35,232 nucleotides of DNA from Thermoplasmatota archaeon (lineage in GTDB: Archaea > Thermoplasmatota > Thermoplasmata > Thermoplasmatales > GCA-001856825): contig JAMCUN010000008.1 of NCBI GenBank assembly GCA_023381415.1, forward strand, positions 1-35,232, in the 5' to 3' direction. The position numbers and the translations under genes are program-made. The notes under the pieces were generated by a model, which ran no database searches, was not told the DNA's origin, and worked only from the letters and a program-made list of their open reading frames with translations. Every line of letters starts with the position of its first letter. Position 1 is the stretch's first letter. Shown here in pieces: positions 11,217 through 28,993 of the stretch.

Positions 11217-11280
11217 CCCCGATGCGTAACAATTCAGACAGGTTTCTGTGCCTGATGACGGGCTCTTTCTGCGGGAAGTT

Positions 11281-11316
11281 TCGGTACACAACCAACCGAT
11301 GATAACATTATTATAG
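11281..11316 (+). promoter_or_regulatory. Heat-shock operon promoter with adjacent inverted repeat
   Basis: A TATA-like CATTATTATAG at 11306-11316 lies 20-30 bases before the grpE GTG. Directly upstream is a short inverted repeat, TCGGT (11281-11285) and ACCGA (11295-11299), separated by nine bases. It is placed where a regulator or transcription factor B element could act, but five-base arms can arise by chance. Confidence 0.4.
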
Positions 11317-11335
11317 AAGTGCTAAATTAGGGAAA

Positions 11336-11818
11336 GTGCCAACCGTCTCCTATTACAGAAATCTGAAACAATCCCTTTCGGATTGCACAGAAAAGGTCAA
11401 GTCGCTAGAGCAGAGCAACGGGCAGAAGGACAAGGAGATCAAGGAGCTGAAGGAGCAGAACCTCAGGTTCTCGGCTGACCTGGAAAATTTCCAGAAGAGG
11501 GTGGGGGAAGAGTCGATGAAGATTGTCAGCTACGCTTCGGAGAGAATCATAAAGCAGCTTCTTCCTGTGCTGGACAGCCTTGAAAACGTGACGGATGAGG
11601 GATCCATCGCGATAAAGAGGCAGATTGAGGGCATACTCCAGAAAGAGGGGTTGACGGCGATCAACGACAGCTCTGCCTTCGATCCGAACAGGCACGAGGC
11701 CATAGGAGCGGAGGAGGGTGGAGTGGCCAACACAATCAAGAAGGTTGTGAGAAAGGGGTACGCACTTGGAGACAGGGTGATAAGGCCAGAGTTAGTAATT
11801 ATCAACAAAGGTGATTAG
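11336..11818 (+). CDS. grpE: GrpE nucleotide exchange factor
   Basis: Releases ADP from DnaK to restart the chaperone cycle. The 160-residue protein has a long charged N-terminal coiled coil (about residues 15-60) containing the family sequence [13 protein letters not shown], then a four-helix part with LLPVLDSLE, and a C-terminal beta domain ([26 protein letters not shown]). Start is GTG at 11336 with a purine-rich AGGGAAA just upstream. It is followed immediately by dnaK and then dnaJ. Confidence 0.95.
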
Positions 11819-11819
11819 G

Positions 11820-13667
11820 ATGGAAAAAATATTGGGAATAGATCTAGGGACGAGCAATTCGCAGGCTGCAGTAATGATAGCGGGCAAGCCGGTAGTGCTG
11901 CCAAGCTCGGAAGGAACAACGCTCGGAGGAAAGGCGTTTCCGAGCTATGTTGCCTTCACGAAGAACGGGGAGCTTCTCATAGGGGAACCGGCGAGGAGGC
12001 AGGCCCTCACGAATCCTGAGGGCACTGTATACGCATTCAAGAGAAGGATGGGTGAAAATTACAAGTTCAAGATAAGGGGGAAAGAGTATACGCCACAGCA
12101 GCTATCAGGCTTCCTTCTGCAGAAGATAAAGGACGATGCGGAGAAATATCTCGGGGAGAAGGTCTCTAAGGCCGTCATAACCGTGCCAGCTTATTTCAAC
12201 GACAACCAGAGGCAGGCCACGAAGGATGCAGGCGCAATTGCCGGACTGGACGTGGTGAGGATAATAAACGAACCTACGGCAGCGGCGCTCGCATACGGAC
12301 TGGACAAGACGGAGGGAGAGCACAGGATAATGGTCTTCGACCTGGGAGGTGGAACGCTTGATGTGACAATAATGGAATTCAGCTCCGGGGTGTACGAAGT
12401 ACTTTCAACTTCCGGGGACACGAAACTCGGAGGGACGGACATGGATGAGGCGGTGATAAACTACCTAGCCTCCAAATTCCAGCAGGAGAATGGAATCGAC
12501 CTGAGGAAGGACAAGAATGCGTACATCAGGCTCAAGGACGCAGCCGAGAAGGCGAAGATAGAGCTATCCACCTCCCTATCCACTGAGGTCAACCTCCCGT
12601 ACATTACGAGCGGCGCTGACGGGCCGAAGCATCTCCTGATATCTATGACAAGGGCAGATCTGGAGAACCTGGTGAGGCCCATAATGGAAAGGGCTAGGAA
12701 GCCCATAGAGGAAGCGCTCAAGGGGGCCAAGATTTCTGCATCGGACATAAGCAAGGTGATACTCGTCGGTGGTCCAACAAGGATGCCGATGGTCAAGAAG
12801 TTCGTCGAGGACATAATGGGAAAGAAGGTCGAAAGCGGCGTTGACCCGATGGAGTGCGTAGCAATAGGTGCATCCATTCAGGGTGCAGTACTGGCAGGAG
12901 AGGTGAAAGGGATAGTCCTTCTTGATGTCACCCCGCTCACCCTCAGCATAGAGACCCTCGGAGGAGTTGCAACGCCTCTCATAGCTGCAAACACAACAAT
13001 ACCTACAAAGAAATCACAGGTCTTCTCTACGGCCGCTGACAACCAGACGGCAGTTGAGATCATCGTCGTCCAGGGGGAGCGTCCCATGGCGAAGGACAAT
13101 ACGCTCCTTGGAAGGTTCATGCTGGACGGTATCCCTCCAGCGCCCAGGGGGATGCCCCAGATCGAGGTCACGTTCGACATAGACTCAAACGGAATACTGA
13201 ACGTAACGGCAAAGGACCTTGCAACGAACAAGCAGCGCGGCATAACAATAACATCAAGCACTAAGTTGAGCAAGGAAGAGATAAACAGGATGAAGGAGGA
13301 GGCAAAGAAGTACGAGGAAGAGGACAGGAAGAAGAAGGAGGAGATAGAGACAATTAACGGAGCTGAATCGCTTGCCTACTCCACGGAGAAAACTATGAGC
13401 GACTATGGAGACAAGATTCCGCAGGACATAAAGGACAACATCAACGGGAAGCTCAAGGACCTGAAGGATGAGATCCAGAAGAAGGACGTCGCTGCAATGA
13501 AGGAAAAGATGGATGTGCTTACGAAGGAGATACAGAAGATAGGGGAATACATGTACAAGAACGTCAAGCAGGAAGAGCAGCAGTCATCTGGGGCAGAAGA
13601 GGCCCCTCCAGGTCCAAATCCAGGTGAGACGGAGATTCACGAAGATAAAGAAAATAAGGAGCAATGA
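11820..13667 (+). CDS. dnaK: DnaK (Hsp70) chaperone
   Basis: ATP-dependent chaperone of the bacterial type. The product is 615 residues from the ATG at 11820; a GTG nine bases upstream is also in frame, but the GGTGAT Shine-Dalgarno-like sequence sits well for the ATG. Motifs are the N-terminal phosphate loop [10 protein letters not shown], the [11 protein letters not shown] segment, the DLGGGTLDV loop, and the substrate-binding domain beginning after [13 protein letters not shown]. The C-terminal lid is short and acidic, lacking the bacterial EEVD-like end. The gene begins one base after the grpE stop codon, so translation is probably coupled. In archaea this cluster is generally attributed to transfer from bacteria. 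Confidence 0.98.
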
Positions 13668-13680
13668 ACTCCTGATCTGA

Positions 13681-14787
13681 ATGGGCAAGGATTATTATGC
13701 CATCCTGGGAGTGGACAGGAAGGCATCAAAGGATGAGATAAAGAAGGCATACAGGGAACTGGCAAAGAAGTACCATCCAGACCTTAACCCCCAGAACAAG
13801 AAGGAGGCGGAGGAGAAGTTCAAGGACATCTCAGAGGCATACGAAGTGCTGATGGATGACCAGAAGAGGGCAAGGTTCGACCAGTACGGTGAGGAGGGAG
13901 TTAAGTTCCAGGGACAGGGGTTCGACTGGAACCAGTTCCACCACTACCAGGATATCCAGGATATATTCGGGGACATATTCTCTCAGTTCGGCTTCGGGGG
14001 CGGTGGGTTTGGAAATCCGTTCGGAGGTTTCTCAGGCCAGCAGAGGGAATTGAGAGGGCAGGATGTATTCGTGGAGATACCCATTGACATTAGAAGGGTG
14101 GCTAAGGGGGACAAGATAGAGGTCTACTACTTCAGGGAGATGAAGTGCGACGAGTGCGAAGGAACGGGTTCCTCCACTAAGAAGCTCCTGACCTGCCCCA
14201 CCTGCAGGGGGAGGGGATATGTTGAAAGATCTTCTAACCAGGGGTTCATACTTTTCAGGACAACAGAGGTCTGCAGGACATGCAACGGCAGGGGAAAGGT
14301 ACCAGAGAAGGTGTGCCACGCATGTTCAGGCTCAGGTTATGTGAGGAAGAAGGACAAGATAGAGATATCCCCTCCCCCCGGGATTCATGAGGAGGAGGTA
14401 TACATTCTCAGGGACAAGGGGAACTACAGGTACGGGGGATCAGGAGATCTGAGGATAAAGTTCGACATAGATTACATGGAATTCAGGAGGTCAGGTGACG
14501 ACCTGGAGAAGGACGTTCAGGTCGATTTCACTGACGCAATAATGGGCGGAAAGGTGAAGGTCAACCTTCTCAGGGGGGAGAAGGAGATAGATATACCTGC
14601 GGGGACCCAGCCGGATGAGCAACTTGTGCTGAAGGGGGAAGGAATCCAGAAGAAGACTGGCAGGGGAAATGCAGACATAATCCTGAGGATGAAGGTAACC
14701 CTGCCGAAGAAGATAACGAAGAAGCAGCGGGAGCTTCTGGAGCAGTTCAGAAATGAGAAGGGGTTCTTCTCCCAGTTTCACCTGTGA
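13681..14787 (+). CDS. dnaJ: DnaJ (Hsp40) co-chaperone
   Basis: Stimulates the DnaK ATPase and delivers substrates. The 368-residue protein has the J-domain with HPD at about residues 33-35, a Gly/Phe-rich linker (about 95-120), four CxxCxGxG zinc repeats ([32 protein letters not shown]) between about 157 and 225, and the C-terminal peptide-binding domain. Complete type I DnaJ architecture. It begins 14 bases after dnaK. Its last ten bases overlap the end of the convergent alaX gene. Confidence 0.98.
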
Positions 14788-16638: not shown

Positions 16639-16710
16639 GGGCTGGTAGATCAGCGGAAGATCGCCTCCTTGGCATGGAGGAGGCCCGGGGTTCAAATCCC
16701 CGCCAGTCCA
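16639..16710 (+). tRNA. tRNA-Ala (anticodon GGC)
   Basis: A full cloverleaf can be folded. The acceptor GGGCTGG (16639-16645) pairs with CCAGTCC (16703-16709) with one G-T, and A is at the discriminator position. The D-stem is GATC/GATC. The anticodon stem CCTCC/GGAGG encloses the loop TTGGCAT with anticodon GGC. The T-arm is CGGGG-TTCAAAT-CCCCG. No intron is present and CCA is not encoded beyond the acceptor sequence. The accessory region starts just downstream, so this is a possible integration target. Confidence 0.95.
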
Positions 16711-16721
16711 TTGCATAAGGC

Positions 16722-17102
16722 TCAGGGTTGCGGGAACTCGTTGAGAAGTCTTAGAACTTCGGATTTCCAGCCACCCTGCGGTTGGACTGGTTTCTGCCGT
16801 GTAGGTTGATTCTTTGATTGCTCCGAGGATGCTTGTTTAGTCTCGTTCTTGATTGGGCTTGAGTTGCTTTGCTGGTGTTCCTGTGGAGTCTTGGGAAATC
16901 CATTCTGTTTGAGAATTCCGAAGGGGACTATGCCCATCTTCGAGAAGTCCTGCTGTTCGAACTCGTTGGGCGGTCTTCCCTGACTGTTCTTGTATTCTTC
17001 CTTGAAAATTCCATTTCCCCTATATAGTAAGATGCATATTGTCTGATTTCTTCGTCTGGAGGGAAAATCATGCGGGGACACCTTCTTTTTGGCTATGCTC
17101 AT
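16722..17102 (-). CDS. Hydrophilic protein of unknown function, possibly a gene remnant
   Basis: An open frame of 126 codons directly downstream of tRNA-Ala on the opposite strand. The product is highly polar, rich in Gln, Asn, Pro and Lys, with no recognisable domain, membrane segment or signal peptide. The middle (FEQQDFSKMGIVPFG) looks protein-like, while the first 30 residues overlap a disrupted ribbon-helix-helix gene in another frame and are less convincing. A TATA-like CTATATAG on the minus strand at 17021-17030 lies inside the frame. It could be the surviving C-terminus of a longer gene. Confidence 0.3.
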   Translation of the reverse strand: MSIAKKKVSPHDFPSRRRNQTICILLYRGNGIFKEEYKNSQGRPPNEFEQQDFSKMGIVPFGILKQNGFPKTPQEHQQSNSSPIKNETKQASSEQSKNQPTRQKPVQPQGGWKSEVLRLLNEFPQP

Positions 17103-17220
17103 GTAGAAGTATTTTCAGAGCTTCCTCAAACGAATCGACTTTCAATTCATACTTCAAATTCTTAAGTTATTCGTGGGTGTCCAAGTGGATTCCTACAATT
17201 CTTTGTTTTAATTTCATCAT
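17068..17220 (-). pseudogene. Ribbon-helix-helix (VapB-like) antitoxin or regulator gene with in-frame stop
   Basis: Starting at the ATG at 17218-17220, which lies 28 bases after a good TATA-like box, the frame reads 17 residues (ending IVGIHLDTHE), a TAA at 17167-17169, then in the same frame LKNLKYELKVDSFEEALKIL and a normal end at 17068. The combined sequence has the beta strand plus two-helix pattern of short RHH antitoxins (strand, then Lk.lK..l..dSf.eal..LL). One base change (GAA to TAA) would explain the stop. The downstream part lacks a good start. A functional short peptide or readthrough is possible but unlikely. Confidence 0.55.
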
Positions 17221-17240
17221 TGTCTCCATTCTATTATTAC

Positions 17241-17298
17241 TATATACAATACATAACATATATGCGTTCTCTACCATGCCTAGAATTAACATATATAC
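17241..17298. promoter_or_regulatory. Divergent TATA boxes, RHH gene / winged-helix gene
   Basis: ATTGTATA-type sequence on the minus strand (17248-17241) lies 28 bases before the RHH ATG. ATATATAC at 17291-17298 lies 28 bases before the GTG of the winged-helix gene. The interval is very AT-rich. Confidence 0.5.
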
Positions 17299-17318
17299 AC
17301 TCGGTAATTCATATATTA

Positions 17319-17606
17319 GTGACAATCTCTGGATTGGAAGGGCAAAAGGGGATCCTGAGGGTCCTGATTTATTTGTTGAATGTGAAAGAGGCGAATAGAC
17401 AGAGAATTACGGATGAATTGACTAACGATGCTAGAATAACTAATGCAAGCATACGTAAACTTGAAGAACTTCATCTTATTGAAAAGTCAATAAAGGAGGC
17501 GGGGAGGGCTGGTCAACAACTTGTTAAAGTCTTCTCCCTTACCGACAAAGGCAAGAAAGTTGCGAAGAATCTCAAGGAGATTGAGGAAATTTTAGGAGGA
17601 GAATAA
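17319..17606 (+). CDS. Winged helix-turn-helix transcriptional regulator
   Basis: A small DNA-binding protein of 95 residues from GTG 17319. It has the winged-helix pattern: LRVLIYLL (helix 1), RQRITDEL (helix 2), TNASIRKLEELHLIEKS (recognition helix), then a wing containing a Gly-rich turn and FSLTDKGKKVAKNL, as in MarR/ArsR-like archaeal repressors. An upstream extension to 17220 is in frame but low-complexity and contains the promoter, so I rejected it. Its stop overlaps the ATG of the next gene (TAATG), and AGGAGGA precedes that ATG, so the two are translationally coupled. It probably regulates the restriction-like gene behind it. Confidence 0.75.
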   Translation: MTISGLEGQKGILRVLIYLLNVKEANRQRITDELTNDARITNASIRKLEELHLIEKSIKEAGRAGQQLVKVFSLTDKGKKVAKNLKEIEEILGGE

Positions 17607-18550
17607 TGACAGAAATTTCTGTGACCAAGATTATTGAACTTGTAAACGCTCTGAAGGATAAAATTTCGAAATATGAAACTGACTTTTCAAGAAACGAAGC
17701 ACTTGTGAGATATTCAATAATTAATCCTTTTCTAATTGCGTTAGGGTGGGACATTTCTAATCCTGCACAAGTGATTCCTGAGTATTCGACAAACGCCGGT
17801 AGAGCAGACTATGCATTACTTAAAGAAAATAGAAAACGACCGATAGCCTTCTTAGGCGCAAAAAAATTAGGAACAAAAGAAGACTTGGGGCAACATCTTA
17901 ATTACTGCCTCCAAGAAGGAGTTAAATATTTTATTGCAACCGATGGACAAAAATGGGAGCTTTATGACACGCACAAGGATGTCCCTCTCTTTGAAAAAAA
18001 ATCAGTAGAATGGGATATTTTGAACGATGATACATCTCAAATAGCAATAAAGTCCCTTGTCATTGCAAATATAGGTTCTTTCGGAGAAGAACCTTTTCAG
18101 CCAATTCATAAAGTGGAGACTGATGCAACGAATGAAAATAAGCAAGAACAATCGTCCATCGTAAGAAATAGGGGAACGTTAAATGAAAGGCGTGTAGGTA
18201 ATAGGAGGAGCCCCTTGAGACCACTTAGCCTCACTATAGAAGAAAAAACATTTCAGGTAAACAAGTCGAATCAGATTCTTATAAAAACAGCAGAATGGTT
18301 GATATCAGAAGGAAAACTGGATGTATCAGCGGTTCCTATAGAGTCAGGGCCGGATCGTTGGCTAATAAGTACGAAGAAAATACACAGAAATGGAAGCCCA
18401 TTCAAAAATCCTTCGAGACTTTCCAATGGACTCTTTATTGAAACGAACTACGGGTCTAGGAGAATTGAGGAACTGGCAAGAAGATTAATGAAACATTTTG
18501 GTTATTCAGAGAATTCAATTTCGGTGAACTGGATGGAGATGAAAGAATGA
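17606..18550 (+). CDS. Type I/IV restriction-like protein (HSDR_N nuclease fold) with altered catalytic motif
   Basis: The N-terminal 160 residues resemble the HSDR_N/COG2810-type PD-(D/E)xK domain of restriction enzymes: a helix with NEALVRYSIINPFLIALGWD, the metal-binding Asp in GRADYAL near residue 70, and GQHLNYC after the catalytic strand. The usual ExK strand reads IAFLGAKKLG, so Gly replaces the catalytic Glu, and cleavage activity is doubtful. A polar linker (about 180-215) leads to a C-terminal domain with LIKTAEWLISEGKLD and LSNGLFIETN that resembles uncharacterised C-termini of restriction-associated proteins. AT-rich codon use marks it as probably acquired. It may bind DNA without cutting. 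Confidence 0.7.
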   Translation: MTEISVTKIIELVNALKDKISKYETDFSRNEALVRYSIINPFLIALGWDISNPAQVIPEYSTNAGRADYALLKENRKRPIAFLGAKKLGTKEDLGQHLNYCLQEGVKYFIATDGQKWELYDTHKDVPLFEKKSVEWDILNDDTSQIAIKSLVIANIGSFGEEPFQPIHKVETDATNENKQEQSSIVRNRGTLNERRVGNRRSPLRPLSLTIEEKTFQVNKSNQILIKTAEWLISEGKLDVSAVPIESGPDRWLISTKKIHRNGSPFKNPSRLSNGLFIETNYGSRRIEELARRLMKHFGYSENSISVNWMEMKE

Positions 18551-18581
18551 TTTATAAGAAAAATAAAGAAGCAGTTGAAGG

Positions 18582-18905
18582 ATGGTTGCTAAAATAAAGT
18601 CTAACGAGGATCTCGAATCAAGAAGGCGAAATGTTGGAAACGCACTTGCTGAATTCAAAGGCAATATCGTGCAACTTACATACAGGAATGGAGAGGGGAG
18701 AAAGATGGTTACAGATGATTTTATGATCGTGAATTTGAGTCAAGATGGGATATTGATTGACCGTACGGTCTGGAACGAATCAAAATGGAAAGTTGAATCA
18801 GCAGGGCATCCGTTCCTGATTAAACCTGAGTCGGTACATGTTATAGTTTCAAACAATGAAGTCATCTTTCCTCTTAAGTCTCAAAGAAAAAAGAGAGGTG
18901 AATGA
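18582..18905 (+). CDS. Small protein of unknown function
   Basis: A 107-residue soluble, basic protein. It has no recognised motif; the predicted pattern is an N-terminal helix (EDLESRRRNVGNALAEF) followed by beta segments (NIVQLTYR, MIVNLSQDGILID, VHVIVSNNEVIF). A TATA-like GATTTATAAG lies about 30 bases upstream of the ATG at 18582, so it can be transcribed separately from the restriction-like gene 30 bases before. It overlaps the next small gene by eight bases. Confidence 0.55.
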   Translation: MVAKIKSNEDLESRRRNVGNALAEFKGNIVQLTYRNGEGRKMVTDDFMIVNLSQDGILIDRTVWNESKWKVESAGHPFLIKPESVHVIVSNNEVIFPLKSQRKKRGE

Positions 18906-19041
18906 ACTGGCAGGCATAGTCCAGGGATATACCGATGATGTAGATCTGTTGCGCTTAATCGATGAAATTGAGTTGAAGTATGAAAAGGGTGAAATAACGA
19001 AGGAAGAATATGATAAGATGAGGGAGGATTTTGGGAAATGA
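18898..19041 (+). CDS. SHOCT-type small protein
   Basis: A 47-residue product from GTG 18898. Its C-terminus (ELKYEKGEITKEEYDKM) matches the SHOCT short helical motif, which commonly sits at the C-terminus of membrane or oligomerising proteins. A longer frame from ATG 18856 exists, but that part overlaps the previous gene in another frame. The stop overlaps the ATG of the next gene by four bases (ATGA). The codon use looks more like the chromosome than like the AT-rich neighbours. Confidence 0.55.
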   Translation: MNELAGIVQGYTDDVDLLRLIDEIELKYEKGEITKEEYDKMREDFGK

Positions 19042-19421
19042 CCTCCAATCGTGACCCTAGGAGGATATTCTGGACAGGTCTTGCAATAATGTTGGTCCTG
19101 ATCGGAGTTGCTGCAGTGTTGGGCGTGATATTTAATACTCACAACTACACAGTGAATGGACTAAACTGGCTGGGAATTGCAAGCGGAATTGCTGGAACGC
19201 TGATAGGCCTCTTCGTCCTCTTCATATTCATATGGTTCATCGTTTGGATATTCAGGTTCGTTGGATGGTCCTCCAGGAGCTGGAAGTATTATTCAGGCTG
19301 GTGGGGTCATGATGAAGCAATGGAGATACTGAGGGAGAGATATGCAAAGGGTGAAATATCGAAAGAGGAATATGACAAGATGATGAATGATCTCCAGAGG
19401 AATAAGGGGATGAATCTGTGA
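19038..19421 (+). CDS. Two-TM membrane protein with C-terminal SHOCT motif
   Basis: A 127-residue protein with two hydrophobic segments (about residues 11-32 and 46-72), an aromatic stretch rich in Trp and Tyr (FRFVGWSSRSWKYYSGWW), and a C-terminal SHOCT helix (EILRERYAKGEISKEEYDKMM). The motif is nearly repeated from the preceding small gene, and the two are translationally coupled. Function unknown; such proteins often sit in stress or envelope operons. Codon use (many AGG, few AGA) resembles the core genome. Confidence 0.65.
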   Translation: MTSNRDPRRIFWTGLAIMLVLIGVAAVLGVIFNTHNYTVNGLNWLGIASGIAGTLIGLFVLFIFIWFIVWIFRFVGWSSRSWKYYSGWWGHDEAMEILRERYAKGEISKEEYDKMMNDLQRNKGMNL

Positions 19422-19440
19422 TGAAGTCGGAAGGAAGATT

Positions 19441-19506
19441 ATGATTGAATTTCTGAAGGAGATTGAAAGGGTGCCGGAGGATGATGGGGGATATTTACTA
19501 TGCTAG
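19441..19506 (+). other. Tiny open frame, possible gene remnant
   Basis: ATG at 19441 opens a 21-codon frame (MIEFLKEIERVPEDDGGYLL...) that ends inside the start of the NurA-like gene. Its composition is like the SHOCT genes, so it may be the start of a chromosomal gene cut off by insertion of the AT-rich segment. A real peptide is possible. Confidence 0.25.
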
Positions 19507-21347
19507 GAAGACCAACGGTTTCAGATATTTTTGATCTGTACGATCAAGCATTAGACCAAACGAGAGACAGACTGGAAAACAGAGTGATCGAGGGCACTAG
19601 AGCTTTAGATACCTTTTATAGGAACTTCTTGAAAGATCATGTTATTCAATATGCTCCATTATTTCGAAACGAATCATTTCGTCGTGAAATGCATAGAATT
19701 CTGCAACAAAGACATAGAAGTACCAATTTGAGATTCTGGGCAATTGATGGGGCGTGCGAGAAATTAGAAACTTCAGACCTTGCCATATTTTATGGTGGAG
19801 CATATGTCGTAAAGGGAGAACTTGGTCTACAGTCAAATCCTCCTCTTTTGTCGTATAACGAATCCGAACCGGAAGATGATAGTAGCTTGGTTGCATACTT
19901 ACCCCTCTCACCCGAAGATTTAACCGCTATTGATCCTGAAAACAGATTTATAGTAGACGATGCTGAACGAATATCAATCGCTGGATTAGATACTTCATTA
20001 ATGTTGCTCGCCGAGATTTTTATGTGTTATCGGGGGGCCTCAGGCACTGATAGACCTCATCTTATATTGTGGGATCACTCACTAGCGTCAGTTTTGGCAA
20101 ACGCTACTCCAAATGTCAGAGAATTGAGATTTTCTGGTGTACAGATAGCAGGAGAAACTATATGGTATCCTGATCTCTTAGTTGGATACTCCAAACCGTG
20201 GGATAGAAATCTCGACGTACCATCAAAAAAATCTCACAGACTGTGGGAACGCGCCATAGCCAAGATATATGAATCAGAAGAGAAAAAACTTGATCTTGAA
20301 GAATTTTCAAGAAGCGTAAATTTACCAATTGGTATCGTCGAGAGACAAGTAAGACTGATATGGGAATCCAATAAGTTAGGAGAAAAGATAGAGGGTACTA
20401 ATCCTTCTGATGCTTTAGTAAAAAAGACTGGAAAGATCCTCACTCTAAATCAAGAATATATTAACTCGACTTACAAAATTGAGCGAATGTTTCTCTATTT
20501 TTGCAACAAACTCTACAGGGATAAAGACCCGTCAATCTTGATTTATAATTTTAGAGACGAACAAGGTGCAATGAGATCCAGATTTCTGTCTAAAGATGAG
20601 CTCTCCTTCCTATTAGCAATAGGACTTCGTTTGACATTTGAAGCAGCTTGGAGAAATGGTGTTATATTCATAGGAATTTCGAAGGATTCCGCCTCTACCT
20701 ACTTCACCAACCACTACTTAGGGGTAATGAGGTTCATTGGTAGGTTCAATTTCAATTCACTTCCTATTCCTGCAACTGATAGGCTAACTTTTGAACGAAT
20801 CCCTGAAATTGACGGTTCCATAGAAGGTCCGTGGAGCTCTACTGAATTTGATGCATTATTCATGACTCTCAGAATGAGAAGAGAATTTCAAGCGACCAAT
20901 CCAACAATGCAAGGAGTAAGGGGAGATGTTCTAGTTCAACCTAATCTAATTATGAAGTCACTGGTGCAATTCCACTATGCAAGAAACCCACCTACGGAAC
21001 CATCGATGAGTCACGTAATATTCGTAGACCGTTTGATACACCCTTCTTATCAGCCTTCTCAAAGAATGAATATAATTACTGGGGATCCTGATTTGGGAAC
21101 CCTTGAACCGTTCATTCAAATCAACAAGGATGCACCGAATAGGGAACAAGAACTTTCAATGTACCTCTTATCTGTGTTGACAAGGAACGTTTTCCCTGAG
21201 GTAATTGGATATCCAGATCCACTCCACCATGCGGACCGTGGAGCGAAGGCGGTACTTAGAATGGTCGAGCCAATGTTACGTTCTTCAGAGTGGTTAAATA
21301 GAGCAGATCCTATTCATCGTACGCTAAGACAAAACCGAGATGGTTAA
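19500..21347 (+). CDS. NurA-like 5'-3' nuclease, enlarged
   Basis: Predicted partner nuclease of the HerA-like ATPase behind it. The 615-residue protein has NurA hallmarks split over its length: the strand with metal-binding Asp in FWAIDGACEK (Asp83) followed by a beta strand YGGAYVVKGE, the central VIFIGISKDSAS, and the C-terminal GYPDPLHHADRGAKAV near residues 580-595 containing the conserved His/Asp. Typical NurA is about 350-450 residues; the extra length lies between about 190 and 360 and includes a helix-turn-helix-like segment (LDLEEFSRSVNLPIGIVERQVRLIW). The stop overlaps the HerA-like start by eight bases. Assignment rests on motif pattern and on the HerA neighbour. Confidence 0.75.
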   Translation: MLGRPTVSDIFDLYDQALDQTRDRLENRVIEGTRALDTFYRNFLKDHVIQYAPLFRNESFRREMHRILQQRHRSTNLRFWAIDGACEKLETSDLAIFYGGAYVVKGELGLQSNPPLLSYNESEPEDDSSLVAYLPLSPEDLTAIDPENRFIVDDAERISIAGLDTSLMLLAEIFMCYRGASGTDRPHLILWDHSLASVLANATPNVRELRFSGVQIAGETIWYPDLLVGYSKPWDRNLDVPSKKSHRLWERAIAKIYESEEKKLDLEEFSRSVNLPIGIVERQVRLIWESNKLGEKIEGTNPSDALVKKTGKILTLNQEYINSTYKIERMFLYFCNKLYRDKDPSILIYNFRDEQGAMRSRFLSKDELSFLLAIGLRLTFEAAWRNGVIFIGISKDSASTYFTNHYLGVMRFIGRFNFNSLPIPATDRLTFERIPEIDGSIEGPWSSTEFDALFMTLRMRREFQATNPTMQGVRGDVLVQPNLIMKSLVQFHYARNPPTEPSMSHVIFVDRLIHPSYQPSQRMNIITGDPDLGTLEPFIQINKDAPNREQELSMYLLSVLTRNVFPEVIGYPDPLHHADRGAKAVLRMVEPMLRSSEWLNRADPIHRTLRQNRDG

Positions 21348-23196
21348 TATGATAACTAATCCGTTTGATGACGAACGACTTAGAGGGGCTAGATCAGCTC
21401 TCGTAAGAGTGACTCCAGACACACAAGGAAGATTTTCATTTGAGTTGTGGTGTCAATACACTCGGCTTGGACTTGATAGTCTTCAGATAGGAGATCTGGT
21501 TGCTATAGAGAATTATACCCCACCTACTAATGGAAATAATGTGTATTCCGTACTCACTCTTTCCCAAATTTATCCAGTCCATTTTGCAATTCAAGGCAAA
21601 GATGCATATCCTGGTCACGTTTTTGAGTCGATGAGGTCTATAAGGGAAGATTGGGAAAGTCAATCTGAGCGTCCTCTGCATCTTACCACTACAATTATGG
21701 CACAAGCTGTCTCTACAGGGTTCCAGTTTAGATATAACCCTCGGTCTACTGAGCTCCCTCCATTTGAGGAGGAGAGAAATATCCCAATGACTGGTGCAGA
21801 GATCAGACCCTTGAGTAGAGCAATGGTAGATGCTATAATAAATCAAGGGATACGTGATGAGCCAGATTCACCTTTCAACCATAAGAAGTTTGACAACCTC
21901 AATGTGAAACTGAATATTGAAAGTCTTCTTACAACTCACTTTGGAATATTCGGTTTCACAGGAGTGGGAAAGTCAAATTTGGTTTCGTCCTTGGTATCAG
22001 CCCTGTCATCAGGCAATTTAGGAGTTTCTGCAAACATTGTATTAATGGACCCTAATGATGAATACCTTGCTTTGCTTATTGATAAATTCGAATCCGCACC
22101 TGATCAGGTTTCTTACATACACGTTGGGCCTGAGTCTCTTGCAACAAGAATAATTCAATACTTAGGAGATAACGGCAATAATGTGCCGAATGAGGTAATT
22201 GAGCTAATGAGACAGCAACTACGCTTACCTCCCGCTCTCCAAAATGTTCCGAATCTAACAGAATATCTGCGTCGTGCCTTGTCAAACGCAATACGCAGGA
22301 CGAGGATAGTACTACCTTTTGAGGACATTAGGACATTAATTCATGAAGAACTTCAAAATCAAACAGATGAACGAACCGGTCCAGCTGCACGCGAGGCACT
22401 CAGAAATGTTGAAAGAAATTGGTCGGATGGCTTTGAGGGAACCCCAATCACTTCAGAAAATGTCAAAAGGGCAATTGATGCTGCTAATGCATTTCCGTCT
22501 CCTTTTGCTCAACCGTTTCAACATATTAATGATGCTACTAAGGGAACGGCCAAAGGAGTAATAGATAGAACTCTGCGCGAACTGGATAGGATACAAAGAG
22601 GGCTCATAAACATTCCACCAAGCGCTATTATTCCGATTGGAGATCTAATTCAGAGCTTGAACTCTCGAGAAAGACATCAAACTATAATAATCACTGGCAG
22701 AAAAGATTCAGAACTGAAACATTTTGCATCGGTTCTTGGTAACCAACTTTACGACTCTAGAAGACAGATGACTAGCAGGGAGCCATTCATATCATTCGTT
22801 TTTGATGAAGCCGATTTGTTCTTACCCCAAGACAGACAAGACGCAGATACAGTTGCAATAAGGGAACTCTGTATTACTTTAGCGAGAAGAGGTAGGAAGT
22901 TTGGTCTCGGAATTGGCATATCAACTCAACGAGCTTCTCTTTTGGACACGGCAGTAATGGCAAATCTTCACACTTATTTTGTGAGCAAGTTGCCCAGACT
23001 TAGCGATAGACAGAGAGTATCCGAGGCATTTGGTATTAGTGAAGAACAATTGGCTCCAACATTCACATTTCGCCCTGGGAACTGGCTTATCATAAGCCAT
23101 GATGCTACTGGATTGAAGGGGGTCCCTATTCCAACTATTGCCGAAGATGCAAACCAAAGAATTCTTAGGAATGCTGGAATTTCTGAGCAACACTAA
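21340..23196 (+). CDS. HerA-like hexameric DNA translocase ATPase
   Basis: FtsK/HerA superfamily motor expected to form a ring with the NurA-like protein and drive DNA through it. The 618-residue protein has an N-terminal HAS-barrel-like beta region (about 1-110), Walker A GFTGVGKSN at about residues 205-213, a large helical insertion (about 270-420), Walker B FVFDEADLF at about 487-495, and the C-terminal HerA signature region ARRGRKFGLGIGISTQRAS. Two possible ATGs exist (21340 and 21349); the first overlaps the nurA-like stop. Core archaeal HerA is usually about 500 residues, and this one has AT-rich codon use, so it is likely an accessory copy rather than the housekeeping HerA of the mre11-rad50 cluster. 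Confidence 0.88.
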   Translation: MVNMITNPFDDERLRGARSALVRVTPDTQGRFSFELWCQYTRLGLDSLQIGDLVAIENYTPPTNGNNVYSVLTLSQIYPVHFAIQGKDAYPGHVFESMRSIREDWESQSERPLHLTTTIMAQAVSTGFQFRYNPRSTELPPFEEERNIPMTGAEIRPLSRAMVDAIINQGIRDEPDSPFNHKKFDNLNVKLNIESLLTTHFGIFGFTGVGKSNLVSSLVSALSSGNLGVSANIVLMDPNDEYLALLIDKFESAPDQVSYIHVGPESLATRIIQYLGDNGNNVPNEVIELMRQQLRLPPALQNVPNLTEYLRRALSNAIRRTRIVLPFEDIRTLIHEELQNQTDERTGPAAREALRNVERNWSDGFEGTPITSENVKRAIDAANAFPSPFAQPFQHINDATKGTAKGVIDRTLRELDRIQRGLINIPPSAIIPIGDLIQSLNSRERHQTIIITGRKDSELKHFASVLGNQLYDSRRQMTSREPFISFVFDEADLFLPQDRQDADTVAIRELCITLARRGRKFGLGIGISTQRASLLDTAVMANLHTYFVSKLPRLSDRQRVSEAFGISEEQLAPTFTFRPGNWLIISHDATGLKGVPIPTIAEDANQRILRNAGISEQH

Positions 23197-23240
23197 GGAA
23201 TTAATGGAAATGTTTAAGATGAAATAGGTCCTGTGGTCCT

Positions 23241-24365
23241 GTGGGAATTATTCCTATATTCGTTGCAGATAGGCCATTCTCCTTGAAAATATTGGAAGGG
23301 TTAGCTGGTTACAACAACCAGTTCGGGATATTATCACATGCATTTACGTCTAATCCGTTCAAGATAAAATTCAAGAAATTCGACCTGACAGATACCAAGA
23401 TAGGCGACTCGGGAATATTCCAAGGAAGAGATGTCGACTATAATTTTCTCTTCGGTGAGTACCTTAAGATGGGAGTTAGTCACGGGATAATAAAGGATTA
23501 TTATAGAGACCCTTATAAAACTTTAAGCAGTGCTAGAGAAGCTATAAGAGAATATCGTTCTGGTAGATATGATAGAGATTTCACGCTCGTTGGTGTCGCT
23601 CAAGGAAGATCATCAAAGGAATACGTCGAGAGTTATACAAAACAGAAGCGAATGGGCTATGAAATGGTAGCGATAGGAGGGCTTCTAGATAAAGTTGAAA
23701 ATCACGTTAGACTTGTTAAAGTGCGACGGGAAGAAATGCTTGTCGAAACTCTCACAAAAATCAAAAAGAAGTATCCTGAAGACAAATTATTCCCGCTTGG
23801 AACTTTTAACAGATCCAGAATCGGGTTATTCAAGCAACTAGGGGTATGGGGTTCAGACTATAAAGGTTGGATATTCCGCTACAACCTAGAAGAAAGTCAT
23901 AAAAAGCATAACAGGATGGAACAAACCCGTAGCTACATAGAAAGGGAAATATTTCCATTATTGAGCAAGGAGAGGTTACTCCTACTTTCATGCTCAGAAA
24001 CAAAAAAAATTGGAGAAGGAAAAGCGATAGACATATACGATGGCCCAGCCTTTAAAATGGTCAGAAAATATCTAAACCAGAGAGATGGTATAGACGTTAG
24101 AATTATCTCTGCCAAATATGGAATTATTAGCAAAGACAAGCCAATTGAATATTACAATGAGAAACTCACCCCCGAAAAGGCACTAAAGTACAGGTTGATA
24201 TATTCAAACGAAATCAATGCCCTGTGTTCAAACTACCAAGACATAATGTTATTTGGAGGACACACATACCAGTCTGTTTTTAAGGATGAAAACATCAAAA
24301 GAACATCGGGTAGAATAGGAGAGCAGTTATTACAATTAAAGGAGTGGCTCTACTCAGGAAATTAG
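23241..24365 (+). CDS. TGT/DpdA-like transglycosylase fused to DUF6884 (YaaA-like) domain
   Basis: Predicted base-exchange enzyme of the tRNA-guanine transglycosylase superfamily. Residues 1-215 follow the TGT barrel pattern: DSGIFQ at 56-61 (TGT has DSGGFQ), GVAQGR at 118-123, AIGGLLD at 144-150, and GSDYKGWIFRY near 204-214 where Asp206 could be the nucleophile. This shape is closer to DpdA, which inserts 7-deazaguanine into DNA, than to archaeosine TGT, and no PUA domain is present. Residues 245-374 resemble DUF6884: LLLLSCSETKK, YDGPAFKMVRKYL, ISAKYGIIS and LFGGHTY. The start is GTG 23241, about 27 bases after a TATA-like TTTAAGAT. It lies 45 bases behind the HerA-like gene. DNA specificity is an inference. 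Confidence 0.7.
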   Translation: MGIIPIFVADRPFSLKILEGLAGYNNQFGILSHAFTSNPFKIKFKKFDLTDTKIGDSGIFQGRDVDYNFLFGEYLKMGVSHGIIKDYYRDPYKTLSSAREAIREYRSGRYDRDFTLVGVAQGRSSKEYVESYTKQKRMGYEMVAIGGLLDKVENHVRLVKVRREEMLVETLTKIKKKYPEDKLFPLGTFNRSRIGLFKQLGVWGSDYKGWIFRYNLEESHKKHNRMEQTRSYIEREIFPLLSKERLLLLSCSETKKIGEGKAIDIYDGPAFKMVRKYLNQRDGIDVRIISAKYGIISKDKPIEYYNEKLTPEKALKYRLIYSNEINALCSNYQDIMLFGGHTYQSVFKDENIKRTSGRIGEQLLQLKEWLYSGN

Positions 24366-24865
24366 ATTTTAAGCTCTTTACTTTTTTTCTTACCACTTAT
24401 CATCTCCTCTAGAGCTGTCATCCTGTCCTCTAATTTTTGAATCCTTTCTTCAGTGGTCGACAGCACGAGGACTCCAGAGGGGTTTGCCATTAATTTTCTT
24501 ATTGATTCGTAAAAGGTTCTGTCACTGAATAATTTTCTGGAATCGTTCCTAGAATTTCCCCGACTGACCAGGGTAGGTTTGAGAAGACTAGATGCTACCA
24601 GCTCTGCAGCTTCTAGTCTGGCTCTGGTTGAAAATCCCGGCTCTTCCCACCATTTTAGTTTGGTAAGATATTGTGTTTCTAATCTGACTGCAGCTTGTCC
24701 GGTAGTTACGCTGCTATTATGCTTTACGAGGTGCTGCTCCGCCCTTTGCCTGAGGTTCTTGGCCACTCCTACGTATGCAACGTATTCTGTTACTCCTCTG
24801 CCCCCATATAGGGCATAAACTGCAGGTACACTTGGCAGCTCTTTTGTAGAATTTATCACTCTCAT
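24362..24865 (-). CDS. GIY-YIG family nuclease domain protein
   Basis: A 167-residue protein whose N-terminal 100 residues fit the GIY-YIG fold: VYALYGG (about 15-21) as the GIY strand, AYVGVAKNLRQRAEQHL (about 30-46) containing the YIG-like YVG, the conserved Arg and His, and a later helix with Glu (ARLEAAELVASSLLKP). A C-terminal coiled coil (EERIQKLEDRMTALEEMI) suggests oligomerisation. It converges on the DpdA-like gene with a four-base overlap. The ATG at 24863-24865 lies about 25 bases after a TATA-like box on the minus strand (about 24887-24895). Possible roles are restriction or mobile-element homing; none can be fixed. Confidence 0.75.
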   Translation of the reverse strand: MRVINSTKELPSVPAVYALYGGRGVTEYVAYVGVAKNLRQRAEQHLVKHNSSVTTGQAAVRLETQYLTKLKWWEEPGFSTRARLEAAELVASSLLKPTLVSRGNSRNDSRKLFSDRTFYESIRKLMANPSGVLVLSTTEERIQKLEDRMTALEEMISGKKKSKELKI

Positions 24866-24911
24866 TTAATGAACGATGAACTCCGCGTTAATAAAGTGGC
24901 GGGATATGAAG

Positions 24912-25235
24912 TTAAACCAGCTCCAGTTCCTCCATCAACTCATCAGCTCTCTCGCTGGATACCTTCGTTATGACGAAGCTCATATTCTCCTTCAGGAACT
25001 CGAAATACTGTTCTTTGTTCTTCGAGACCTCATATCCTTTCATCATGATCTCGTAATCTATGTCCCACTGGTCTTTCCTTCCTGTGATATATTCCTTCTT
25101 GAACCGTTATTGACCATTCTCCACACCCTCCATCCTCAATTTGTCCAAAACTTCATTCATATTCATCTGGCCAAGTACCTTCAAGCCATCTTTCCATACA
25201 AGTGTAGTCTGTTTGTTTGTTAAATTGCAAATCAT
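24912..25235 (-). pseudogene. Unknown small protein gene interrupted by in-frame TAA
   Basis: From ATG 25233-25235 the frame reads 42 residues (ending MEGVENGQ), then TAA at 25107-25109, and continues in the same frame without shift: RFKKEYITGRKDQWDIDYEI and on to a normal TAA at 24912-24914. The whole would be a charged, mostly helical protein of about 107 residues. No family was recognised. The codon composition is continuous on both sides of the stop, which favours one gene with a nonsense mutation over two genes; the second half has no start codon near its beginning. Confidence 0.5.
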
Positions 25236-25240
25236 TGGGA

Positions 25241-25399
25241 TCACTCCCCTAATACCTCTCTGCCATCAGGGCTAGATAATTCGGAAACGTTATCCATGAA
25301 ATCAAGTTCCTCCTTCAGATTAATCCTGTCAAGCCTTTTCATCCTTCCTTCTACCAACTTGTCAAATTCTATGTCTGCTGCTTCATTTTTCATGTACAT
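25241..25399 (-). CDS. Short acidic protein of unknown function
   Basis: A 52-codon frame (or 50 from ATG 25393) opening MYMKNEAADIEFDKLVEGRM and ending in VLGE. It precedes the interrupted gene by five bases, so the two look like an operon of antitoxin-like size. No motif recognised; helices are predicted from the alternation of charged and hydrophobic residues. Could equally be the N-terminal part of a longer ancestral gene. Confidence 0.35.
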   Translation of the reverse strand: MYMKNEAADIEFDKLVEGRMKRLDRINLKEELDFMDNVSELSSPDGREVLGE

Positions 25400-25647
25400 C
25401 GATCCGAAAATTTGCAACCATATATTTCAAGATTTTAGTCCGAATTGAAAAGTGAATGAAATGAAAAAGTGAATTTTGTAAGGAAAAAATTATTAAAGGG
25501 ATTGTTGCATTCACATTCATGCGAAAAATGAAATCAGAAAGAAAGAGAATTAAGATAAGATTTGTAAGTATATGGATGACACCCTTCAAATAATAGTATT
25601 AGAGAATGACGGCTAGCTCTCTCTCAAACAGACAGCCGTAGTTAATT
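25400..25647. other. AT-rich intergenic region with terminator-like hairpin
   Basis: No credible gene. Near its end is a six-base-pair inverted repeat ACGGCT (25609-25614) and AGCCGT (25634-25639), followed on the plus strand by GTTAATTTTA. It could end transcription of the HD-domain gene on the minus strand or act on plus-strand readthrough. The rest is low-complexity A/T with no repeat I can support. Confidence 0.35.
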
Positions 25648-27156
25648 TTAGGATTTCGCATGACTACTGATTTCCTCTACTAGTGATTCTCTGATTTCCT
25701 TTATGTAGTTCGCCTTCCATTCGGATCTGTACCCCTTGGCGTTCAATGGCAGAAAACCAAGATATGCTGGCCTAAACTGGGTCCATTCCTTGTTTATTGC
25801 CTGAAAGTATGAAGAAAGGCCCTCAGTCATTATTTCCTTAATTTCGTTGCCACTGTAAATCCAGATATTATCCTCCTTTGCTTTAGGTGTATAAGGGGAT
25901 CTTGGCTGAAAGCTCAAAATAAGGTGGATATCAATTGATCTATTTGCCTTCCTTGGAATGGAGTTGCTTTCCTGTTCTTCCACACTCTTACCCCATCTGG
26001 AAATCTCTTTTTCTACAGTATCCTTGTACGACAAGTCCCTGCCGAATCCAATCTTTTCAGAAATATCCTTAACAAACTCATCGTAATCGTACGGCCTCTT
26101 GAACAGGCTAATCGGAAGATACCTCCTGTCAATGATTCCACGGAATGGCTGGCTTTCCTTTCGAGAGAAGTCTTGCTTCGAGAAAACCCCAATCGCTTCG
26201 TCGTCATACGATTTCCCCTTTACAAATTCCTTCCAGTTGAAGAATTTTGATGGCAATTTTCCTACGTCTGTAAGCTTTTTAAGGGCCTCCTCACCCATCT
26301 TATCAACCAGGACCACAAGTGAATGCCCGTAGACCCATTTATACATCTTAAGACGGGAATCCTGCATATCCTCTATGCTTCCAAGGGATTTAATGTGAAA
26401 GGAGATTGTGTACTCATTTGTGGGTTTGACAAGTTTGATGCTCAAGCCATCAATTATCCTCTGAATATCGATGTTCCCATATACAGCACCAGTCATGTAT
26501 GAGTCTCTGAGAAGGTAGTCAAATCTGTCTGAATCTACATAACCCGACACGATTGGGTGGACTGTTTTAGTCCATGATGTCGCACCTTCCATTCTAGGGA
26601 AAAGAACTGATGAAATGTCCTTCTTGTTGAATTGTAGTCCCTTCGACTCTTTCAAGATGGAATCAATCTCACCGTCTTCGTTTATTATCTTGTAAGAGTA
26701 GTATTCGTGAGTAGGAATTAAGGTATTGCCGGTAAGGCTAAACAAACGCATAGCCTCTTCGTTCTCTGACTTTTTCAGCGTCTTTCTCATTATGTTTTCA
26801 GACGCGTGCGAGAATGGTCCGTGTCCAATGTCATGAAGCATTGCAGCCAGTCTCACGACACCAATTACGTATTCTACTTTCTCATCACCAAATAAGTTCT
26901 TGTACGTATTTCGGTCCATTTTCTGTAGAATACTTGTGATCATTTTTCCTGCAACATGCATCGTTCCTACACAGTGGACGAACCTGGATGTGACAGCATT
27001 AGGGAAGACTAGATAGGCAAGTCCATTAACCTTCACCCTATGCAGTCTCATGAAACTCGGAACCTGTAATATCCGGTATTCTGTATCTGTCAAAGGGATA
27101 TGACCGTGGACAGGATCTACTATGGTAGTTCTAGGAAGACTCGTCGGAACTTCCAT
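25648..27156 (-). CDS. HD-domain phosphohydrolase (dNTPase-like)
   Basis: Member of the HD superfamily group that includes dNTP triphosphohydrolases and SAMHD1 (COG1078-like). The N-terminus reads DPVHGHIPLTDTEYRIL, followed by RLHRVK and SRFVHCVGTMHVA as in that group. The metal-binding HD is in AAMLHDIGHGPFSHASE near residues 108-124, and a later Asp is in DSDRFDYLLRDSYMTG near 215-230. At 502 residues the length is usual. A TATA-like TATATATTAAAA on the minus strand lies about 20 bases before the ATG. Codon use is AT-rich, and it sits among nuclease genes and a DNA methyltransferase remnant. A role in dNTP depletion during phage infection is possible but unproven. Confidence 0.85.
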   Translation of the reverse strand: MEVPTSLPRTTIVDPVHGHIPLTDTEYRILQVPSFMRLHRVKVNGLAYLVFPNAVTSRFVHCVGTMHVAGKMITSILQKMDRNTYKNLFGDEKVEYVIGVVRLAAMLHDIGHGPFSHASENIMRKTLKKSENEEAMRLFSLTGNTLIPTHEYYSYKIINEDGEIDSILKESKGLQFNKKDISSVLFPRMEGATSWTKTVHPIVSGYVDSDRFDYLLRDSYMTGAVYGNIDIQRIIDGLSIKLVKPTNEYTISFHIKSLGSIEDMQDSRLKMYKWVYGHSLVVLVDKMGEEALKKLTDVGKLPSKFFNWKEFVKGKSYDDEAIGVFSKQDFSRKESQPFRGIIDRRYLPISLFKRPYDYDEFVKDISEKIGFGRDLSYKDTVEKEISRWGKSVEEQESNSIPRKANRSIDIHLILSFQPRSPYTPKAKEDNIWIYSGNEIKEIMTEGLSSYFQAINKEWTQFRPAYLGFLPLNAKGYRSEWKANYIKEIRESLVEEISSHAKS

Positions 27157-27339
27157 TTAGAATTCTATATATTAAAAATATTAAATAATTTCTATTTGCA
27201 TGAATTGGGACTTAATTGCTATCTGGTCATTAAAACGAGTTCGATGACTAAAAGTGCCTTCTGAAGCTCAAGTTTATCTGGTAACAACTATTTTCTAATA
27301 TCTTCAACTCCTTAAAGGGACAGTGATGGTCTATCTTCC

Positions 27340-27689
27340 TCAAAACTTCCACCAATACCCACATATCCATTTCTTCCTTCCATTTTCCACTAGAGGATTC
27401 GCATAATCAATAGCTTTATTCGGTTTGCCGAATATATCTTCCATCCACTCATCATAGAACGACAGGTTCAGCAAGTAGCTACCCTCAAGCTCATCCATCA
27501 TCTTCTTTAAGTCGATAAGGTCCTGCAGCCGGAAGATATGTAAGGGGGATCAAGGTAGAAGAACACCTTGGGTTTGTTGTATTTCTTCATGAGCTGCCTG
27601 AAGTCCATATTCTCAACTGGCCAGTCCTTCACATAAAGGAAATTCTCTATATGGAACCTCGGGACTCCCTTTTGCCCCTTGAATCTTCT
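27340..27689 (-). pseudogene. D12-class (Dam-like) DNA adenine methyltransferase remnant
   Basis: Reading from 27689 downward gives FHIENFLYVKDWPVENMDF and then VFFYLDPPY, with the catalytic DPPY at 27540-27551, exactly the C-terminal half of D12-type N6-adenine methyltransferases. About six codons later the frame is lost; a one-frame shift near 27524 resumes the family sequence (DLIDLKKMMDELEGSYLLNL, then KKWICGYWW) and ends with TGA at 27340-27342. The N-terminal SAM-binding region (FxGxG) is absent, since the esterase gene ends at 27709. The gene is therefore truncated and frameshifted and cannot make an active enzyme. Confidence 0.75.
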
Positions 27690-27708
27690 TTAGAATGTCT
27701 CATCTATT

Positions 27709-28650
27709 TTATGTAAGAATGTTGCCAACGAATGACCAAATCATTGTAAGAAGATTTTTAGACGCTGGAACTACTGGGAAGAAATTTTGGAATCCGTGTA
27801 TCATGCCTTTTGCCCTAATTCCTGTAGCTTGCGTTCCGTCCTTCTGAAGTTTTGCAAGGTACGTTTCCCCCTCATCCCTCAGAGGGTCATATTCAGCTGT
27901 TACCACGAGTGCCTCTGGTAATCCGGAAAGGTTAGGATGATTTATTATCGAAAAGTATGGATCAAGAATGTCAGAGGGTTGCTTTAGATAAGCCTTACCA
28001 AAAAATGCCATATCCTTTTCAGTCAAGTAGTAATTTTCGGAATACTCTGTCATGGACATCGAAGCCCCGCTTCTACCCAAAGAAGGATAAATCAAGACCT
28101 GCAGTCTTGGAGGCTTCAATTTCAAATCCCTTGCCTTAAGGCATACCCCGGCCGCAAGATTCCCACCTGCACTGTCACCTGCAACTGCAATTTTTTCAAC
28201 ATCTATGTCTAATTCCTTTGCACTCCTTTGGACCCATCTTAGTGATTCAAGTGCATCCTCGAGGGCTGCAGGAAATTTGTTCTCCGGGGCCAGTCTGTAG
28301 TCAACGGACATAACCCGGGTCTTCGAACGATTAGCCGCAATGCGGCAGAGACCATCATACATATCCAGACTGCCAAAGACGAAACCTCCACCGTGGAAAT
28401 ATAAAATCAAACCAGACCCTGCATTTTCGGGAGTGTAGAGTCTTGTACGAACAGTCACTGCATCATGTTCGAACTTCATGTCCTTCACCTCCCCAACTTC
28501 TTCGCTTGTCTTGATCAAGGCAGATTGTTCGGCAAAATTCCTGAACTCCTTTATGTCCGTCGTTGTTAAATCTGGTCGCGGTATGCTTTCCATCATTTTC
28601 AAAAGATTCTTAATATCTGGGTCCAGAGGCATTTCAACCATCTCTTTCAT
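27709..28650 (-). CDS. Alpha/beta hydrolase, HSL-type carboxylesterase
   Basis: Soluble esterase of the hormone-sensitive-lipase group. The 313-residue protein has the oxyanion motif FHGGGF near residue 83, the nucleophile elbow GDSAGG near 155-160 (Ser157), the acid in DPLRDEGETY near 252, and the His in GMIHGFQ near 283. The length is usual and no signal peptide is seen. The ATG at 28648-28650 lies about 20-25 bases after ATATTTAAATT on the minus strand. It hydrolyses short-chain esters in known relatives; its physiological substrate is unknown. Its end lies 19 bases from the methyltransferase remnant. Confidence 0.9.
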   Translation of the reverse strand: MKEMVEMPLDPDIKNLLKMMESIPRPDLTTTDIKEFRNFAEQSALIKTSEEVGEVKDMKFEHDAVTVRTRLYTPENAGSGLILYFHGGGFVFGSLDMYDGLCRIAANRSKTRVMSVDYRLAPENKFPAALEDALESLRWVQRSAKELDIDVEKIAVAGDSAGGNLAAGVCLKARDLKLKPPRLQVLIYPSLGRSGASMSMTEYSENYYLTEKDMAFFGKAYLKQPSDILDPYFSIINHPNLSGLPEALVVTAEYDPLRDEGETYLAKLQKDGTQATGIRAKGMIHGFQNFFPVVPASKNLLTMIWSFVGNILT

Positions 28651-28993
28651 GGAATTATTAATTTAAATATTTGTTAAAGGTGACCGTGAACGTAGTTTGC
28701 GGCTCGATGCAACCAGATATGCAACGTTCAAAAGAAGCAATCATGAATGTTGTCGTTGGGCTCTATATGATACACCGTAATCTCTCCGGCAAAGTTGACT
28801 CTTGAAAATAGACGTGAGATTTAGATTCCTAGGTGGATATAGTAAACACTTTTGGAATAACAAAAATGGAAGGGAATCACTGGTGTCAATAAATATACCA
28901 ATAATGGTGATGGCTAAAGTTTAGGAACGCTTAAATATTCAGATAGTCTAAATGGGACGTAGGCATATAATATAAATGATACAAGGAGACCAG
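28651..28993. other. Intergenic region with KaiC-like gene promoter
   Basis: No supported gene in about 340 bases. A 28-codon frame (MQRSKEAIMNVVV...) near 28720-28804 faintly resembles a transposase tail but is too short to call. At the right end ATATAATA (28965-28972) lies 29 bases before the ATG at 28994. Confidence 0.4.

Follow-up and report, generated by a model that had tools for sequence, protein, structure and literature searches.

The analysed window, a stretch of 35,232 nucleotides from a Thermoplasmatota archaeon (contig JAMCUN010000008.1), contains three consecutive genes encoding a NurA-like nuclease, a HerA-family ATPase and a DpdA-like transglycosylase fused to a DUF6884 domain. 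We propose that the trio is a compact, three-gene, 7-deazaguanine restriction-modification-like defence operon with HerA-NurA as the restriction arm (probability about 0.62). In self DNA, the DpdA-like domain would replace guanine with preQ0, a base made by the host for tRNA. The fused DUF6884 domain, as the counterpart of DpdC, would then hydrate the preQ0 mark to an amide form (dADG-like). HerA, acting as a hexameric DNA pump, would thread unmarked foreign DNA into the NurA-like nuclease for degradation. We refer to the third gene as the marking gene.

All three open reading frames (ORFs) are on the + strand. The NurA-like gene (positions 19500–21347) encodes a divergent protein of 615 amino acids (aa) with a long central insert. 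The HerA gene (21340–23196) encodes 618 aa and overlaps the NurA-like ORF by 8 bp (21340–21347). The marking gene (23241–24365; 374 aa) begins with a GTG codon 44 bp past the HerA stop codon. Its DpdA-like domain (DNA-guanine transglycosylase) covers residues 1–216 (23241–23888), and the YaaA/DpdC-like DUF6884 domain covers residues 247–348 (23979–24284). The block is AT-rich; the GC fraction is 0.37–0.42 over most of 17–28 kb and approximately 0.50 to the left. The original prediction, made from the letters alone, had described the same three-gene block. Its coordinates, common direction and labels all hold, the NurA label being the weakest. Its suggestion that the DpdA-like gene has its own promoter was not established. 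The gap after HerA contains a single TATA-like match (6/8; TTTAAGAT), seen by eye about 28 bp upstream. Relatives have their third gene abutting or overlapping HerA, which favours co-transcription.

The trio recurs. With the marking protein as query, a scan of approximately 85,000 species genomes gave five relatives. Two are in Thermoplasmata metagenome-assembled genomes (MAGs), one of which (DBS2-4.bin120) has a protein 71% identical to ours. The other three are in MAGs of Archaeoglobus, Heimdallarchaeota and Spirochaetes, one each. A second search used the HerA family within the phylum of the Archaeoglobus MAG. The original prediction had called for such a search of gene neighbourhoods. The complete trio, in the same order, is present in four other genomes (loci L085, L086, L087 and L089). 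Across these and the window, neighbouring genes overlap by up to 8 bp or are at most 44 bp apart. In a sixth locus (L056, genome G456) HerA and the marking gene overlap by 14 bp and the contig ends inside HerA. A NurA sought elsewhere in G456 was not found; this negative is weak because true relatives are only ~33% identical to the query. Locus L088 (6077–10004) has the NurA-like gene and a HerA gene that an insertion element has truncated; it lacks a nearby marking gene and is possibly a decayed system. This single case is as predicted by restriction-modification logic, since restriction cannot persist without the mark.

The marking gene has other partners elsewhere. In L052, a marking gene 71% identical to that of the window follows genes for a DpdJ-like helicase (PADLOC E = 1e-40), a DpdK-like PLD protein (E = 4e-9) and an unknown 394-aa protein. 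The Archaeoglobus marking gene (L053) lies upstream of a gene, read in two frames, for a DruE-like helicase that has a PLD end (PADLOC, 6e-82). In L055 (2576–9942), genes for a DISARM DrmA-like protein (PADLOC, 1e-77), a 607-aa protein and a DrmC-like protein (1e-25) are followed by the base-exchange gene at the operon end. In L054 and L067, the marking gene follows genes for a SIR2-ORC/CDC6 protein and a CARF-like protein. The CARF-like call is a sub-threshold match in L054 and, in L067, is by likeness in size, place and sequence character. By inspection, L086 also carries SIR2-ORC-like and CARF-like genes (10997–14489, − strand), convergent with the trio and of the same effector-pair kind. 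On a Haladaptatus plasmid, DUF6884 and tRNA-guanine transglycosylase (TGT) domains are encoded by adjacent separate genes, after a PLD gene and a helicase gene labelled DpdJ-like from size and order rather than by profile search. Thus, the fusion joins functional partners. A scan of plasmids and phages with the L053 marking protein returned matches to the DUF6884 part only.

Marking genes and partners have been reshuffled. The NurA-like and HerA proteins of the window are nearest to those of L089 (68% and 56% identity, respectively). Conversely, the marking domain is 72% identical to that of L052 and only 43% identical to that of L089. In the marking-gene tree, the grouping of the window with L052 was fully supported. 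Forcing the window together with L089 was rejected (p-AU, from the approximately unbiased test, of 1e-5), as was a single clade of all HerA-linked marking genes (p-AU of 1e-54). The tree groups were named after the loci had been seen and the p values are descriptive. Across the 11 members of the tree, partner type switches five times or more. Hence, the marking gene is an exchangeable module that is not tied to HerA-NurA; the writer is constant across loci and the destroyers vary. Repeated placement of the marking gene beside other restriction modules strengthens the modification-plus-restriction interpretation. A broader proposal, to which we give even odds, is that the fused DpdA and DpdC functions form a one-protein 7-deazaguanine marking cassette. 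This would be a general mobile self-marking subunit, in archaea and some bacteria, plugged into five or more restriction modules that are unrelated to one another (HerA-NurA, DpdJ/K, a Druantia-like helicase, DISARM DrmABC and SIR2-ORC/CARF-like). The effectors would read the same base mark and HerA-NurA would be a new restriction arm.

The third protein has two parts. The N-terminal part matches the NCBIfam DpdA model (E = 1e-8), but its score of 34.4 bits is well under the equivalog cut-off (200) and places it far from the reference family. The same model matches 10/10 fusion relatives, with the best E-values, whereas the general TGT model gives weak matches in 4/10. Compared with solved structures at E ≤ 1, the family profile matched only DpdA (7ui4; E = 1.2e-5) and, at the DUF6884 end, YaaA (E = 0.066). 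A structure model of the third protein was of moderate confidence (predicted local distance difference test, pLDDT, of 65). Its best Foldseek match by E-value was again DpdA 7ui4, above tRNA TGTs, with low template-modelling scores (~0.3). Residues D56, D86, Q121, G146-G147 and D206 are invariant in the family. In the profile alignment, D86, Q121 and G146-G147 fall on TGT motifs and D206 lies just beyond the alignment end, opposite the nucleophile position. We take these to be active-site residues of the TGT type. Overall, the DpdA likeness of the N-terminal part is genuine though remote, and the match is to DpdA rather than to tRNA TGTs.

The C-terminal part scores 50.6 bits with Pfam DUF6884 (cut-off 30) and contains CxxxK (C251-K255) and SAKYG motifs. 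PADLOC gave matches to DpdC (E = 2.6e-4) and to PDC-M57A (E = 3e-11), a PADLOC candidate that was not traceable to a paper. Up to seven of the ten members match DpdC weakly. For the dpdC gene of dpd islands, DUF6884 is the reported Pfam domain (PMC11888242). This part is most simply read as a DpdC-like second step.

The DUF6884 family also provides an argument for a different role of the third protein. YfjM, a DUF6884 member, is reported as a DNA-lesion interactor and was modelled flipping a base (PMC11701544). Hence, the third protein could be an attacker or sensor directed at incoming DNA, such as hypermodified viral DNA, whose bases it would recognise or exchange, leaving lesions to be processed by HerA-NurA or other nucleases. 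That the partners of the marking gene are all effector-like modules fits this view. We consider it unlikely. The chemistry of the TGT family is base exchange rather than excision, and DpdA, the nearest enzyme of solved structure, marks self DNA by inserting preQ0. Furthermore, partners of the DISARM and Dpd types normally depend on a self-mark, and no other mark was seen by motif scan; this crude scan found no DNA methyltransferase in the marking-gene clusters apart from a separate type I system in L089.

Since the TGT superfamily consists mostly of tRNA enzymes, and four of the ten relatives weakly match its general model, the third protein might instead act on tRNA or other RNA. It would then be riding with defence genes and, for example, restoring or altering tRNA during infection. 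The profile and structure matches to DpdA described above oppose this. In addition, none of the 11 proteins has the CxCxxC zinc-type motif that tRNA TGTs carry, and the partners act on DNA. The host already has one ordinary tRNA-type TGT of 598 aa elsewhere in its genome, and the window gene is not among the PF01702 (tRNA TGT) matches of that genome. We regard an RNA substrate as distinctly improbable. Neither of the outcomes that would have undone the original prediction, a lack of recurrence or a clearly tRNA-type third protein, was observed; the trio recurs, and DpdA matches the protein ahead of tRNA TGTs. A cysteine-rich insert near residues 55–90 is present in the marking proteins of L085, L086, L067 and L089, without counterpart in the window protein; in that one branch, it may be a metal site.

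The second protein is clearly a HerA-family ATPase/translocase, with a DUF87 core (Pfam, E = 2e-17) and Walker motifs. It matches PADLOC HerA (PDLC01055, E = 1e-50), and the family profile matches solved HerA structures with E-values down to 2.7e-20. The Walker A motif (GFTGVGKS) is at residue 205, DEAD is at residue 489 and RRGRK at residue 516. HerA-nuclease and SIR2-HerA systems can act without modification genes (one is described in PMC11291478), and two marking genes are beside SIR2-ORC and CARF-like proteins. Thus, HerA-NurA could kill or degrade in response to a trigger other than mark status, in an abortive manner, while the mark protects against something else. Such an arrangement would not explain the persistence of one marking gene alongside effectors of so many kinds, and we judge it no more probable than an RNA substrate.

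The NurA-like gene adjoins HerA in six loci. In a profile comparison, the NurA-like family matched 30 true NurAs with P = 4.6e-4; two control families gave 0.29 and 0.14. In a forced full-length alignment, the DG, E, D and K-D-S motifs line up in order with those of NurA, and D83, E172, D192, K395 and D396 are invariant across six relatives. In Thermococcus kodakarensis NurA, the D49 region is essential (PMC12977600). We take the first motif to be the probable counterpart of that region. Resting on weak profile scores and conserved motifs, the NurA identity is plausible but weak. The recurrence of the whole trio in four other genomes shows that the observation is not due to chance. Least probable of all is that HerA-NurA is a repair pair with the transglycosylase as an unrelated neighbour: archaeal HerA-NurA does resect DNA ends (PMC12977600), but the host encodes a separate, probably housekeeping, HerA (G000:C23), the NurA-like protein was not found in 299 other sampled genomes of the class by a search sensitive to fairly close relatives only, and the trio occupies a variable island and is intact again in distant genomes.

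Taken together, recurrence of the trio, the DpdA match and the presence of the marking gene beside other restriction modules support the modification-plus-restriction module of the original prediction. Gene order and its recurrence, domain identities, conserved active-site motifs, reshuffling, the host's precursor gene and the island location were observed directly; we infer the chemistry, the substrate, the base mark and its reading, and the defence effect. The preQ0 precursor should be available because the host genome encodes QueC, which functions in preQ0 synthesis (254.6 bits). Several observations weigh against the proposal. The Pfam NurA model (PF09376) scores 14.8 bits with the window protein, below the cut-off of 21, and is matched by 4/6 relatives with a best E-value of 0.0065. 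The single-sequence structure model of the NurA-like protein was unusable (pLDDT of 33). QueC is weak in 2/7 genomes (G456 and G602). DpdB, a ParB-like ATPase used by the Salmonella-type pathway, was absent among the nine window proteins scanned with PADLOC. With the zinc motif missing, we presume base-exchange activity because the aspartates are retained. The Heimdall member has lost the active motif of DUF6884, and in the Spirochaete member the domain is in a separate frame. The motif is also degenerate in the marking protein of L055.

We compared the trio with known systems. Dpd systems, and the role of DUF6884/DpdC within them, have been described (PMC11888242). Like Dpd (dpdA-dpdK, Salmonella Montevideo type), the loci have a DpdA-like base-exchange enzyme, a DpdC-like DUF6884 domain and linked restriction genes, and the sibling locus L052 has DpdJ/DpdK-like partners. 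Unlike Dpd, the window is archaeal, has its marking functions fused in one short protein and has HerA-NurA as the proposed restriction arm. PADLOC found no DpdD-DpdK restriction genes in the window, and DpdJ/K-like genes only in L052. The BREX-related capture (BRC) system, reported in 2026, also combines HerA and TGT in a predicted defence locus (PMC12839542), with a HerA/FtsK translocase linked to a TGT homologue. Whereas BRC has PglZ, DUF6079, a STAND-NTPase, DUF4007 and, in part, GNAT, with no DpdC homologue, the window operon has NurA and DUF6884. None of the PglZ, DUF6079, DUF4007, STAND or GNAT families was detected in the nine window proteins scanned. We file the trio as a variant of Dpd-type DNA marking that lies outside the Dpd and BRC systems as defined.

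Other resemblances are partial. As in the archaeal HerA-NurA end-resection pair, the NurA-like and HerA-family genes are adjacent and the NurA motif order is kept. The differences are a NurA part of ~600 aa with a large insert and a score below the Pfam cut-off, the link to a marking gene, and the location in a variable island. A link to DISARM is seen in L055, a relative whose DrmA/DrmC-like genes accompany the same marking gene. There, the base-exchange gene occupies the place of the DISARM methyltransferase; the window has no Drm genes. In the haloarchaeal virus HRTV-29, a DUF6884/YaaA-like gene overlaps a DpdA gene. However, the HRTV-29 genes are viral and separate, have no linked nuclease, and have a presumed role in protecting the virus. 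The open-licence literature holds no description that we could find of a NurA-HerA-DpdA/DUF6884 combination, or of DISARM with a base-exchange writer, an absence that is no proof of novelty.

The block is in a hotspot (16639–28975) flanked by a farnesyltransferase gene, tRNA-Ala(GGC) (16639–16710, + strand) and a KaiC-like ATPase gene. In four congeners (L110–L113) the same three features, including the same tRNA between the same flanking genes, surround other, unrelated DNA. The two flanking protein genes are 1.4–4.3 kb apart in the congeners and 12.6 kb apart in the window. With flanks kept and cargo differing, the trio resides in an island that is variable and anchored at a tRNA gene. We found no direct repeat of the end of tRNA-Ala on the far side of the block, and site-specific integration at the tRNA is unproven. 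A viral origin is unsupported; scans of viral contigs, for which the NurA-like protein, HerA and three family alignments served as queries, found no relatives. Plasmids contained no relative of the NurA-like protein. Elsewhere in the island (17220–18550), a gene for a winged-helix regulator is directly followed by one for a PD-(D/E)XK/HSDR_N-like protein, a possible second defence element. A gene for a GIY-YIG-like nuclease (24362–24865, − strand) runs opposite to the marking gene and shares its last 4 bp. Further on, an HD-domain protein (25648–27156, − strand) is weakly similar to dGTPases, including anti-phage dGTPase models.

If our proposal is correct, HerA-NurA, known from DNA repair, would double as the destroying arm of a base-marking immunity. 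DNA 7-deazaguanine defence would extend to Thermoplasmata and other archaea, and DUF6884 would gain a defined chemical role. A single gene would suffice to write a 7-deazaguanine self-mark readable by many effectors, a modular logic that is directly testable, and would provide a compact tool to write 7-deazaguanines into DNA.

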